Source: Humidesulfovibrio sp. (GTDB taxonomy: Bacteria > Desulfobacterota > Desulfovibrionia > Desulfovibrionales > Desulfovibrionaceae). Taken from it: a stretch of 64,000 nt of DNA. The DNA lies in NCBI RefSeq assembly GCF_030689645.1, contig NZ_JAUYFU010000020.1, positions 62,001 through 126,000 on the forward strand, written 5' to 3'. The position numbers were made by a program, and so were the translations under genes. Positions 39,519-50,409 of this stretch are shown here, in pieces (the stretch's first letter is position 1; every line of letters starts with the position of its first letter). Under the pieces are notes generated by a model. It was not told where the DNA came from. It did not search any database and worked only from the letters and a program-made list of their open reading frames with translations.

Positions 39519-40172
39519 GTGTTCGCCCTGTACGATCTGGCCGCCGGGCCGCTTTTCGCCTTTTCTCTTTCGGTTTTCGTGCTTGGCATGGGCTGGCGCG
39601 TGCTGCGCTTCCTGCTGCTGGCGAAACGCGCGGACCCCGCAGCCCTCAAGGGCTTCCGCCTGGTTTGGGCGATAAAATCCATTTTCCGCTGGCTCGTGCC
39701 CGCCAATATCACCGCGCGCGAAAACCCCCTGCCCACCGTTGCTGGCTTCGTGTTCCACCTGGGGCTCCTGGCCACGGCGCTGTTCCTCCAGGCCCACGTC
39801 ATCCTGTGGGACCAGGCCTGGGACATCTCCTGGTGGACCCTGCCGGACGAAGTCGCCGATTATTTGGCCTTCGCCTGCCTGGGGGCCGGAGCATACCTCA
39901 TCCTCCGCAGGCTGGCCGCGCCCCAGGTGCGCGCCCTCACGGGGCCCAGCGACTGGCTCGTGCTCTTTCTTTCCCTTGCGCCTGTGCTTAGCGGCGTGCT
40001 GGCCTATCACCAGTGGGGCGACTACGACACCATCATCGCCCTGCACGTGCTGGCGGCAGACCTGCTGCTGCTGATCGCGCCCTTCACCAAGCTTTCCCAC
40101 GTGGTATTGTTCTTCGTGTCCCGCGCCGTAACCGGCAGCGACTTCGGCAAGCGCAACGTCGGCGCCTGGTAG
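39519..40172 (+). CDS. Membrane cytochrome b, HmcE/TmcC/DsrM (nitrate reductase gamma) type
   Basis: 217 residues from the GTG at 39519, preceded by GGGAGGA. Five hydrophobic segments. Histidines placed as haem b ligands occur in AGFVFHLGLL, FLQAHVILW, VLAYHQWG and IIALHVLAA, with a further KLSHVV. The protein would exchange electrons with menaquinone and pass them to the HdrD-like partner encoded 14 bases downstream. Order cytochrome b then HdrD-like matches hmcE-hmcF; no cytochrome c or Trp-rich subunit of a Tmc or Hmc complex is nearby. Confidence 0.82.
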   Translation: MFALYDLAAGPLFAFSLSVFVLGMGWRVLRFLLLAKRADPAALKGFRLVWAIKSIFRWLVPANITARENPLPTVAGFVFHLGLLATALFLQAHVILWDQAWDISWWTLPDEVADYLAFACLGAGAYLILRRLAAPQVRALTGPSDWLVLFLSLAPVLSGVLAYHQWGDYDTIIALHVLAADLLLLIAPFTKLSHVVLFFVSRAVTGSDFGKRNVGAW

Positions 40173-40186
40173 CCAAGGAAGCAATC

Positions 40187-41425
40187 ATGACCCTCGACAT
40201 CCCCAAGCTGAAACAAGCCCTGAATTCCCGCAACGGCGCGCGCCTGCGCATGTGGCTGGACATCTGCGCCCATTGTGGCCTGTGCGCCCAGGGCTGCCAT
40301 TTCTACCAGTCCGACCCACGGCCCGAGCACGTGCCCGCCCACCGCATGAAGCCCATGGCCGAGATGCTGCGCAAGAAGGGCGAGGTGAACGAAGAGTTCA
40401 TGCAGTGGCTGGTGGACACCGTGTACGGCACCTGCACCATGTGCCAACGCTGCACCATGTTTTGCCCTTATGGCATCGGCATCGCGTTCATCGTGCGCGC
40501 CACCCGCGCCCTTGCCGTCAGCCAAGGGCTTACGCCGCCGGGCCTGGCCTCGGGCCTGCAGAACGCGCTGGACGTGGGCAACAACCTTGGCATCACGGAC
40601 GAGGAATACCGCGAGACCATCGAGTGGCAGCTTGAGGAATTGCAGGAGGAGATGCCGAACGCGGTTGCGCCCATCGACAAGAAGGGCGCGGAGGTGCTCG
40701 TCACCTTCCACCCGCGCGACATCAAATTCTACCCGCAGAACCTGTACGGCTACCTGAAGCTCTACAACGCGGCAGGGCTCGACTTCACCTTGGCGGGCAG
40801 CAAGGGCTGGGATTCGACGAACATCGGGCTTTTCGCCGGGGACGACCCGGCTGCGGCAGAACTGTGCGGACGCGTGGTTGCCGCAGGCGAGAACCTGGGG
40901 GTGCGAACCATCCTCACCGCCGAGTGAGGGCACTCCATCCGCGCCCTCAAGTTTGAGGGACCGAACTGGCTGAAACGAGACTTCCCCTTCGAGGTCATGG
41001 CTCCCATGAAGATGTGGGCCGACCTGCTGCGCCAGGGGCGGCTCAAGCTTAAACAAGGCTTCCACAAAGAGTCCGTGACCTTTCAGGACTCGTGCAACTT
41101 TATCCGCAACGCCGGGCATTTCGAGGACTCGCGCCTGCTCATGCGCCATGTGGCAGCAGACTTCCGCGAGATGCACCCAAACGGCGTGCATACCTATTGC
41201 TGCGGCTCCGGCGGCGGGCACGGGCTCATGAGCGAGTACAAGCAGAAGCGCCTGGCCACGGCCAAGGCCAAGGCCGAGGCCATCCGCGCCACCGGGGCTG
41301 ATGTCACTGTTGTGGCCTGCCACAACTGCGAGGACGGCATCCGCGACGGTCTCAAGGCCCACGAGGTGCCCTCGCAGGTGCATCTGTTCAGCAACTATCT
41401 TGCCGAGGCCGTGGACCTGGATTAG
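40187..41425 (+). CDS. HdrD/HmcF/TmcB-like iron-sulfur protein read through UGA, probable selenoprotein
   Basis: 412 residues if TGA 40925-40927 is read as amino acid 247. AAGGAAG precedes the ATG. Two [4Fe-4S] motifs, CAHCGLCAQGC (from residue 27) and CTMCQRCTMFCP (from 83), are followed by a CCG domain: DSCNFIRN, YCCGSGG, CHNCEDG. The UGA falls in the motif E-X-G-H-S, where relatives are expected to have cysteine near the active iron-sulfur centre. Frame, codon use and homology continue without change for 166 codons beyond it, and a hairpin with GU in its loop lies at bacterial SECIS distance. The protein would take electrons from the cytochrome b and reduce a cytoplasmic disulfide or similar acceptor. 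Confidence 0.82.
40925..40959 (+). promoter_or_regulatory. UGA codon and candidate bacterial SECIS hairpin
   Basis: After TGA (40925-40927), CCCTC (40944-40948) pairs with GAGGG (40955-40959); loop AAGTTT contains GT at 40951-40952, 24 bases after the UGA, within the 16-37 base range usual for bacterial SECIS elements. Two A-T pairs could shrink the loop further. A competing helix TGAGGGC/GCCCTCA is also possible. Confidence 0.6.
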
Positions 41426-47739: not shown

Positions 47740-47900
47740 TCGCCAGAAGGACATCGAGTAACGGAAGACGGTGCAAATCCGTCGCAGACGCGCTGCTGTA
47801 ACCGGGAAACGTGCCCGCCGCGCCCACTGAACCGTCCAGGTTCGGGAAGAGCGTGGCCCTATGGCCGGGGAGTGGTCTCCGCCCGGAAGCCAGAAGACGA
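47740..47900 (+). promoter_or_regulatory. Cobalamin (B12) riboswitch
   Basis: Conserved core blocks are readable in order: GGAAGACGGTGCAAATCCG from 47763, GCTGCTGTAACCGGG near 47792-47806, and the B12-box-like AGCCAGAAGACG near 47888-47899. It lies in the 340-base leader of metE. Family knowledge: adenosyl- or methylcobalamin binding turns expression off, so the B12-independent enzyme is made only when the cofactor is scarce. A GC-rich hairpin (near 47951-47973) after it may be the switching element. Confidence 0.9.
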
Positions 47901-48066
47901 CTCGACACAGAACCATGACGCAGGCCTCGCGACCAGGGCCGGAGAATCATGGGCGCGCCTCCCCTGGCGCGTCTTCCGCTGGGTGCCGCCAGCATTTCCC
48001 CGCCCCCTCGCGTCTAGCGCCCGCGCCATTTTCTGTGGTCCTGGCCAAACGACCGGAGGTTCTCAC

Positions 48067-50409
48067 ATGCTGACACACACTCTGGGCTTTCCCCGCATGG
48101 GCAAGGCCCGCGAACTCAAGAGCGCGCTGGAAGCGTTCTGGGCAGACGACCCGACACGCGAACCGGGCCGCGAACCGAGCAGGACGGTCCTGCTGGAAAC
48201 CGCCCGCGCTCTGCGCCTGCGCCACTGGGCCGCACAAGTCCAGGCGGGCATCGACATCGTGCCCGTGGGCGACTTCTCCCTCTACGACCACATGCTGGAC
48301 ATGGCCGTGCGCCTTGGCCTGACTCCGAAACGCTTCGCTGATTCCAGCGGAGCTAAGCCCTCGGACCCGCTTGATTTGTATTTCCAGATGGCCCGCGGCG
48401 GCTCGGATACGGACCGCGCAGCCATGGAGATGACCAAGTGGTTCGACACAAACTACCATTACCTGGTGCCGGAGCTCTCCCGCGCCCAGGCCTTCGCTCC
48501 AGACGCCAGCGACCTCCTGGGGCAGTTGTCCGACGCCCAGGCCGCAGGCTTCCGCACCAAGGTGGTGCTGCCAGGCCCCTGCACCTTCCTGCACTTGAGC
48601 AAATCCGTCGATCCCGGCTTTGACAGGTTCGAACTTTTGCCAGCCCTGACTGAGGCTTATGCGCAGATTGTCGGCCAGCTTGCCGCCCACCACACGGGCG
48701 GAGCCGACTGGCTCCAGCTGGACGAGCCGGTGCTGGCCCTGGACCTGCCGGCGCACCTGCCCCGCAAGTTCCGCGCGGCCATCTCCCGGCTCATCCAGGC
48801 CGCAAAACCGGCCAAGGTCATGCTGGGCACCTACTTCGGCGCCGTGGCTCACAATGCAGACGTGTACTCCGGCCTGGAGCTGGGCGCCCTGCACCTGGAC
48901 CTTGTACGTGCGCCGGAGCAGCTGGGTGGGATATTCGCTCACCTTGCGCCGGGCACGGCCCTGTCCGTAGGCGTCGTGGACGGCCGCAACGTCTGGAGGG
49001 TGGACGCAGGCCGCGCCCTGGCCCTGGTTGACCATGCCGTCGGCGTGCTGGGTGAGCAACGCGTCATGGTTGCCCCGTCCTGCTCGCTCCTGCACTGTCC
49101 GGTGGATCTGGACGGCGAGACCGCCCTCAATTCCGAGGTGCGCCAGTGGATGGCCTTTGCCCTGCAAAAATGCGACGAGGTGCGCAAGCTGGCCGACTGT
49201 GCGGGCGGCCTGGACCGCAGCCGCGGCCTATCCTGTGCGGACTGGCTGGCGGACAACCTGGCCATTCTGACGGCGCGGCGCAAAAGCCCGCTGCTCAACA
49301 ACCCGGACGTGCACAGCCGCATGGCCGCGATAACGCAGGACCAGCTCTCCCGCGTCCTTCCCTACCCGGAGCGCGCCGTTCTGCAACACGAGGCCCTGGG
49401 CCTGCCGCTCTTGCCAACCACCACCATCGGCTCCTTCCCGCAAACCAAGGAAGTGCGCCAAGCCCGCGCCAAGCTCAAAAAGGGCGGGATTCCGCCGGAG
49501 GCCTACAAGACCTTCATGGAGGACACCATCCGCGAGGTCGTGGCCGTGCAGGAGCGCCTTGGCCTGGACATGCTGGTGCATGGCGAGCCCGAGCGCAACG
49601 ACATGGTGGAGTATTTCGGTGAGCAGCTGGCCGGGTTCTGCTTTACCCAAAACGGCTGGGTGCAAAGCTACGGCTCCCGATGCGTCAAGCCCCCGGTCAT
49701 TTTCGGCGACGTGAGCCGCCCAGGGCCAATGACCGTTGAGTGGTCGCGCTTCGCCCAGGCCCTGACGCAAAAACCGATGAAGGGCATGCTCACCGGACCG
49801 GTGACGATCCTTTGCTGGAGCTTCGTGCGCGATGACCAACCCCGCGAGGACACCTGCAGACAAATAGCCCTGGCCCTGCGCGACGAGGTGACCGACCTTG
49901 AAGCCGCAGGCATTCGGGCCATTCAGATAGACGAACCCGCCCTGCGGGAGGGCCTGCCCCTGCGGCGCGCCGCCTGGGACGCCTATCTCCGCTGGGCCAC
50001 GGATGCCTTCCGTCTGGCCGTGGGCGCGGCGCGTCCGGAAACGCAGATCCACACCCACATGTGCTACTGCGAGTTCAATGAGATCGTGGACTGGATCGCG
50101 CGGCTCGACGCCGACGTCATCAGCATTGAGGCCAGCCGCAGCCGCATGGAGTTACTTGAAGCATTTCGCCGCTTCAAGTATCCTAACGAAATAGGCCCCG
50201 GCGTTTACGACATCCACAGCCCGCGAGTGCCCGGCGTTACGGAGATGCTGGGCCTTTTGCGCCGCGCCGCCGAGGTCATCCCAGCGCAGCGTCTTTGGGT
50301 GAACCCGGACTGCGGGCTCAAGACCCGCGCCTGGCCCGAGACCCTGACCAGTCTGGCGAACATGGTCGAGGCCGCAGCCATCGCCCGCAAGGAGCTGGCC
50401 CAGGCATAA
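48067..50409 (+). CDS. metE: Cobalamin-independent methionine synthase
   Basis: 780 residues from the ATG at 48067 (GGAGG 7 bases upstream). Two-barrel MetE: N-terminal LGFPRMGKAREL and C-terminal TTTIGSFPQTKEVR, HGEPERNDMVEYFGE. Zinc ligands are recognisable: His664 and Cys666 in HMCYC, the Glu in SIEASRS (about 688) and Cys749 in NPDCG, with the same spacing as in E. coli MetE. It methylates homocysteine from methyltetrahydrofolate polyglutamate. Control by the B12 riboswitch implies that the cell also has a B12-dependent enzyme or B12 supply. Confidence 0.97.
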   Translation: MLTHTLGFPRMGKARELKSALEAFWADDPTREPGREPSRTVLLETARALRLRHWAAQVQAGIDIVPVGDFSLYDHMLDMAVRLGLTPKRFADSSGAKPSDPLDLYFQMARGGSDTDRAAMEMTKWFDTNYHYLVPELSRAQAFAPDASDLLGQLSDAQAAGFRTKVVLPGPCTFLHLSKSVDPGFDRFELLPALTEAYAQIVGQLAAHHTGGADWLQLDEPVLALDLPAHLPRKFRAAISRLIQAAKPAKVMLGTYFGAVAHNADVYSGLELGALHLDLVRAPEQLGGIFAHLAPGTALSVGVVDGRNVWRVDAGRALALVDHAVGVLGEQRVMVAPSCSLLHCPVDLDGETALNSEVRQWMAFALQKCDEVRKLADCAGGLDRSRGLSCADWLADNLAILTARRKSPLLNNPDVHSRMAAITQDQLSRVLPYPERAVLQHEALGLPLLPTTTIGSFPQTKEVRQARAKLKKGGIPPEAYKTFMEDTIREVVAVQERLGLDMLVHGEPERNDMVEYFGEQLAGFCFTQNGWVQSYGSRCVKPPVIFGDVSRPGPMTVEWSRFAQALTQKPMKGMLTGPVTILCWSFVRDDQPREDTCRQIALALRDEVTDLEAAGIRAIQIDEPALREGLPLRRAAWDAYLRWATDAFRLAVGAARPETQIHTHMCYCEFNEIVDWIARLDADVISIEASRSRMELLEAFRRFKYPNEIGPGVYDIHSPRVPGVTEMLGLLRRAAEVIPAQRLWVNPDCGLKTRAWPETLTSLANMVEAAAIARKELAQA

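Follow-up and report, generated by a model that had tools for sequence, protein, structure and literature searches.

Tmc is believed to link cytochromes of the periplasm with DsrC in the cytoplasm by transferring electrons from the former to the latter; reduction of DsrC by Tmc has been predicted, the CCG domain of TmcB being seen as the point of contact (PMC10553843). Tmc operons without TmcA have been published for Seep-SRB1 (PMC10553843). Selenocysteine (Sec) in HdrD-type proteins has been described before: an Fe-S oxidoreductase-like selenoprotein with the motif UGH (GlpC, PTHR43551) appears in published compilations (PMC13188914; PMC1794560), and HdrD4 and HdrF2 of Desulfobacterium autotrophicum are known to contain Sec (PMC2702500). 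Thus, selenium at an E-x-G-H site, which an initial sequence-only reading of the locus described here had considered a notable variation, is no novelty in itself. A literature search found no paper tying selenocysteine to TmcB or HmcF, and the literature found does not settle which residue of TmcB, HmcF or DsrK performs the DsrC chemistry. The kind of selenoprotein reported here is therefore already known, whereas its membrane-complex branch is apparently new.

The window, i.e. the whole stretch of Humidesulfovibrio DNA analysed (64,000 nucleotides), contains the following features:

39519..40172, + strand: TmcC/HmcE/NarI-like membrane anchor subunit, 217 aa, GTG start
40187..41425, + strand: predicted selenoprotein gene, TmcB/HmcF/HdrD-like iron-sulfur subunit, 412 aa, Sec = residue 247
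40256..40477, + strand: two [4Fe-4S] ferredoxin motifs, C27/C30/C33/C37 and C83/C86/C89/C93
40679..40972, + strand: putative degenerate first CCG domain, cluster ligands gone except position 247 (phmmer alignment with 9ojn_A, HdrB/EtfD fold matches, column survey)
40925..40927, + strand: in-frame UGA, predicted selenocysteine codon 247, motif TAE-U-GHS
40944..40959, + strand: bacterial SECIS-like hairpin CCCTCA-AGTT-TGAGGG
41075..41332, + strand: second CCG domain, its five cluster cysteines all retained (C303, C338, C339, C378 and C381)

The frame 40187-41425 consists of 246 codons, the TGA (40925-40927), 165 further codons and a TAG (41423-41425). These coordinates and codon counts had been given exactly by the sequence-only reading, and the C-terminal motifs DSC, YCCG and CHNC were found after the UGA as claimed there. 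Standard ORF calling cuts the gene in two, as had been foreseen; mechanical calling gives 40013-40927 and 40997-41425, a start codon being available at 40997. The ferredoxin part matches Pfam Fer4_8 (residues 24-97), its cysteine columns being invariant, and the second CCG domain (PF02754, residues 297-382) is the sole CCG domain detected by Pfam.

Among the NCBIfam models, HmcF (NF045711) gave the best match with 341 bits against a cut-off of 750, TmcB (NF045724) gave 311 bits (cut-off 735) and DsrK (NF045796) 197-206 bits (cut-off 400). Filing the protein as TmcB, HmcF or DsrK was rejected, since it scores below all three cut-offs. Of the HdrD/HmcF/TmcB-like identity proposed initially, the superfamily was retained: judged by sequence comparison, the Sec protein is a member of the HmcF/TmcB/DsrK superfamily, yet belongs to a separate clade. 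The genome's own TmcB is ~32% identical and carries Cys where the Sec protein has Sec. Domain order and type of anchor are shared with the Tmc complex, as is, in other genera, the type of cytochrome. HmcF, ~39% identical, shares TECGH at the Sec column, but the Hmc operon is absent around the Sec gene. DsrK of DsrMKJOP has the ECGH column and most cluster ligands in common with the Sec protein, whereas the true DsrK of the genome (715 bits) is encoded elsewhere. HdrD4 and HdrF2 of D. autotrophicum, likened here by their published description, are likewise HdrD-type proteins with Sec from a sulfate-reducing bacterium, but their gene context differs from that of the Sec gene.

The anchor encoded immediately before the Sec gene scored 225 bits with NCBIfam TmcC, just under the cut-off of 240, and 191 bits with HmcE, and it matched Pfam PF02665. 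An anchor homologue is located directly upstream of the Sec gene at 14/14 clade loci examined and at 9 more distant ones. In members of other genera (G054, G077, G095, G097 and G337), a gene for a TmcA-like tetraheme cytochrome (4 CxxCH) precedes the anchor; two cytochromes tested reached 88 and 96 bits with the TmcA model (cut-off 114). No TmcA-like gene adjoins the anchor/Sec pair in the genus of the window, Humidesulfovibrio, and, in contrast to Tmc, the Sec-gene loci showed no other conserved neighbouring gene, such as one for TmcD. Given this unit, the Sec protein is very likely a subunit of a Tmc-like complex. One genome (G107) encodes an additional Sec paralogue (contig C10, L088:5079-6257), which is 41% identical, is sister to a Cys protein of G423 and is followed downstream by a TmcA-like cytochrome. 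The register of its SECIS stem is shifted by one base.

GlpC has Sec in the U-G-H of an HdrD-type protein of Desulfobacterota, and U-G-H is also found in the Sec protein. Since fold and E-U-G-H site are alike and the UGH motif is listed in reviews, the Sec protein might be a plain member of this published family which needs no separate description. A second, more distant HdrD-like EUGH family (NTEUGHE) is moreover widespread in the same order (L043-L046, L049, L052-L054). We regard such a membership as possible, but rather unlikely. The clade is nearer to HmcF/TmcB than to the second UGH family (37-40% identity with HmcF, ~31-36% over a shorter stretch with the UGH family), and on the tree the two Sec families are separated by Cys proteins. 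The gene context differs as well: GlpC is reported with hdrA, frhD, frhG and frhA in some Deltaproteobacteria, whereas the Sec gene is grouped with a TmcC-like anchor gene in a unit of two genes, or of three where, in other genomes, a TmcA-like cytochrome is added. No hdrA-frhD-frhG-frhA genes were seen beside the Sec locus, the published GlpC members being compared by description. A separate branch, tied to a membrane complex, is accordingly the reading preferred here.

Members of the second EUGH family sometimes have a Cys copy in tandem (G027, G009), so that a single genome holds a natural pair of Sec and Cys forms. In G039, an HdrB-like gene (L045:5327-6235) was observed near a gene of this family, which suggests that the family works with soluble Hdr proteins.

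Orthologues of the Sec protein were detected at an E-value of 1e-100 in 18/348 genomes of the order, mostly metagenome assemblies, and in 7/59 genera. Every one contains a TGA inside; the orthologues are 61-85% identical and carry TAEUGHS, or a motif close to it, at the equivalent place. No Cys-containing orthologue of the clade was found in the 348 genomes at this threshold, and no plasmid homologue of the Sec protein at 1e-40. Within the genus, dN/dS downstream of the UGA is ~0.10-0.16 (dN 0.05-0.08, dS 0.40-0.51 among congeners), which indicates purifying selection; values of distant pairs for the part before the UGA were left out, as they were spoilt by an indel. In G011, a fragment of an orthologue at a contig end (L071, JANXYI010000407.1) contains the conserved TGA but also a TAG at codon 53, which probably stems from an error of the draft assembly.

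A wider search of the phylum retrieved relatives of 39-45% identity, of which some have TGA and some TGC/TGT at the codon equivalent to 247. Sec and Cys even occur within one genus (TGA in G393, TGC in G356 and G428). The tree, read without a direction of change, contains at least 4 Sec/Cys changes on well-supported branches, and four to five changes were obtained for a second sample (25 Sec and 19 Cys rows).

The hairpin starts 17 nt downstream of the UGA, and its loop G is 24 nt after the UGA. The sequence-only reading had placed a hairpin just after the UGA, where it is indeed present, with a stem one pair longer than noted at that time. In the clade, 6 distinct rows have A-U and 6 have G-C as the closing pair, the change on its U/C side being a silent one (TTT/TTC), and one row has the outer C-G swapped to G-C; covariation is thus limited to mainly one pair. 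Pairing was lost when the register was slid by one to three columns. The hairpin was found in all Sec genes. Folding of the same interval gave a mean of -13.5 kcal/mol for Sec genes versus -7.4 kcal/mol for Cys genes, of which a few fold well too (U-test p 4e-9, to be taken only as a guide because the sequences are related).

Of selA, selB, selC and selD, named in the sequence-only reading as the genes to look for, three were found: selB (374 bits), selC (tRNA-Sec, anticodon TCA) and selD (318 bits), the last of which also contains an in-frame TGA. selA is present in a single copy (596 bits), but is interrupted by an in-frame TAG (AKSGAV*REVGATN; L093:1277-1279, G000 contig C60) at a codon that specifies Leu in four congeners. 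Either the base is wrong or Sec synthesis is truly damaged in this strain; if the TAG is real, the strain could not make Sec, which would count against the Sec reading. The TAG is restricted to this assembly, selA being uninterrupted in the other clade members sampled except for the incomplete genome G011, in which selA was not found.

With the conserved TGA, the Cys column in homologues (see below), the hairpin and selB, selC and selD, the initial proposal of a probable selenocysteine was strengthened: the UGA at codon 247 almost certainly encodes selenocysteine, and the product is a predicted selenoprotein. In several genomes the Sec gene terminates in TGA and no homologous extension follows, so UGA is also a normal stop there and serves as an internal control; UGA as a reassigned codon was rejected on this ground.

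Read-through of UGA is known in bacteria. The codon could therefore be read as Trp or Cys, or it could be a deliberate stop which gives a truncated subunit and, from the start codon at 40997, a separate C-terminal protein. We consider both very improbable, because the UGA coincides exactly with the Cys column, a hairpin and sel genes are present, related clades exchange Sec and Cys, and UGA is the true terminal stop of the same gene in several genomes. A sequencing or assembly error (TGC or TGT misread at 40925-40927, as the sequence-only reading had itself considered) or a decaying pseudogene, which the draft state of the assemblies and the stop in selA of the same genome might suggest, was rejected as having a negligible chance, since the identical TGA is conserved in 18 assemblies, dN/dS downstream of it is ~0.10-0.16 and all cluster cysteines downstream are retained.

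Returning to Sec at residue 247, this column contains Cys or Sec only in 18/18 alignment rows, which include the genome's own HmcF, TmcB and DsrK and other relatives. The motifs are TECGH in HmcF, GECGH in TmcB and GECGH in DsrK; hence, the cysteine expected at E-X-G-H is indeed carried by these homologues. In the same alignment, the second CCG domain has five invariant cysteines, except for one position in DsrK. Those of the first CCG domain are otherwise lost, and P176, D209 and S250 are found near their places. In a phmmer alignment with Mycobacterium EtfD (9ojn_A), E-U-G-H falls on T-C-P-H-C. The predicted structure model, which is of low confidence over the ferredoxin part, matches EtfD (VIA Z 24.9) and HdrB (VIA Z 17-18), both with a tandem CCG fold. 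Since hhalign of the clade versus HdrB from a related genome aligned the second CCG domain alone, and weakly, the register of the first domain is based on the EtfD alignment and the fold matches. According to this alignment and the model, U247 is predicted to take the place of the first cysteine of a CxxC in a domain which otherwise no longer holds a cluster, and it appears as the sole surviving cysteine position of the degenerate first CCG domain. EtfD and HdrB-type proteins (5odc_B, 9ojn) share the tandem CCG fold with the Sec protein, but they retain the cysteines of the first CCG domain, whereas the Sec protein retains position 247 alone.

As a rule, Sec replaces redox-active cysteines. 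For this reason, its recurrence at column 247 points to the catalytic site of TmcB, HmcF and DsrK, and residue 247, the one cysteine kept by all relatives, is probably catalytic as judged from the alignment. The Sec column would thereby indicate where catalysis takes place in three complexes central to sulfate respiration, which makes it directly open to a test by mutation.

Taken as a whole, the data are best explained by a selenoprotein which in all likelihood is the cytoplasmic Fe-S subunit of a Tmc/Hmc-like membrane complex. SelB, tRNA-Sec and the downstream hairpin would decode UGA 247 as selenocysteine, and the product would act as the cytoplasmic iron-sulfur subunit with the anchor supplied by the preceding gene. 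Electrons are presumed to enter from the membrane side, in other genera by way of a TmcA-like cytochrome c3, and would then travel via the anchor and both ferredoxin clusters before reaching the cluster held by the second CCG domain. The selenol of U247, facing this cluster, could help to open a disulfide or trisulfide in some partner protein of the cytoplasm; a role as thiol-disulfide catalyst beside the second-domain cluster is fairly probable. DsrC is the best guess for this partner, a tentative choice with slightly less than even chances. Compared with a thiol, a selenol might open the disulfide or trisulfide of DsrC, or of a similar partner, at a higher rate or at lower potential. Wider in scope, and in our view an even bet, is the proposal that Desulfovibrionales and some other Desulfobacterota run a dedicated seleno-Tmc (TmcA-like, TmcC-like and Sec-TmcB-like subunits) beside the ordinary Tmc, Hmc and Dsr complexes, and that the repeated Sec/Cys exchange marks the lone Cys of TmcB, HmcF and DsrK as a catalytic thiol and not as a structural residue or mere cluster ligand.

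Elsewhere in the window, a cobalamin riboswitch (Rfam RF00174, 66 bits) was detected at 47763-47898, just upstream of a large ORF (47872-50409), which reads like the cobalamin-independent methionine synthase MetE.
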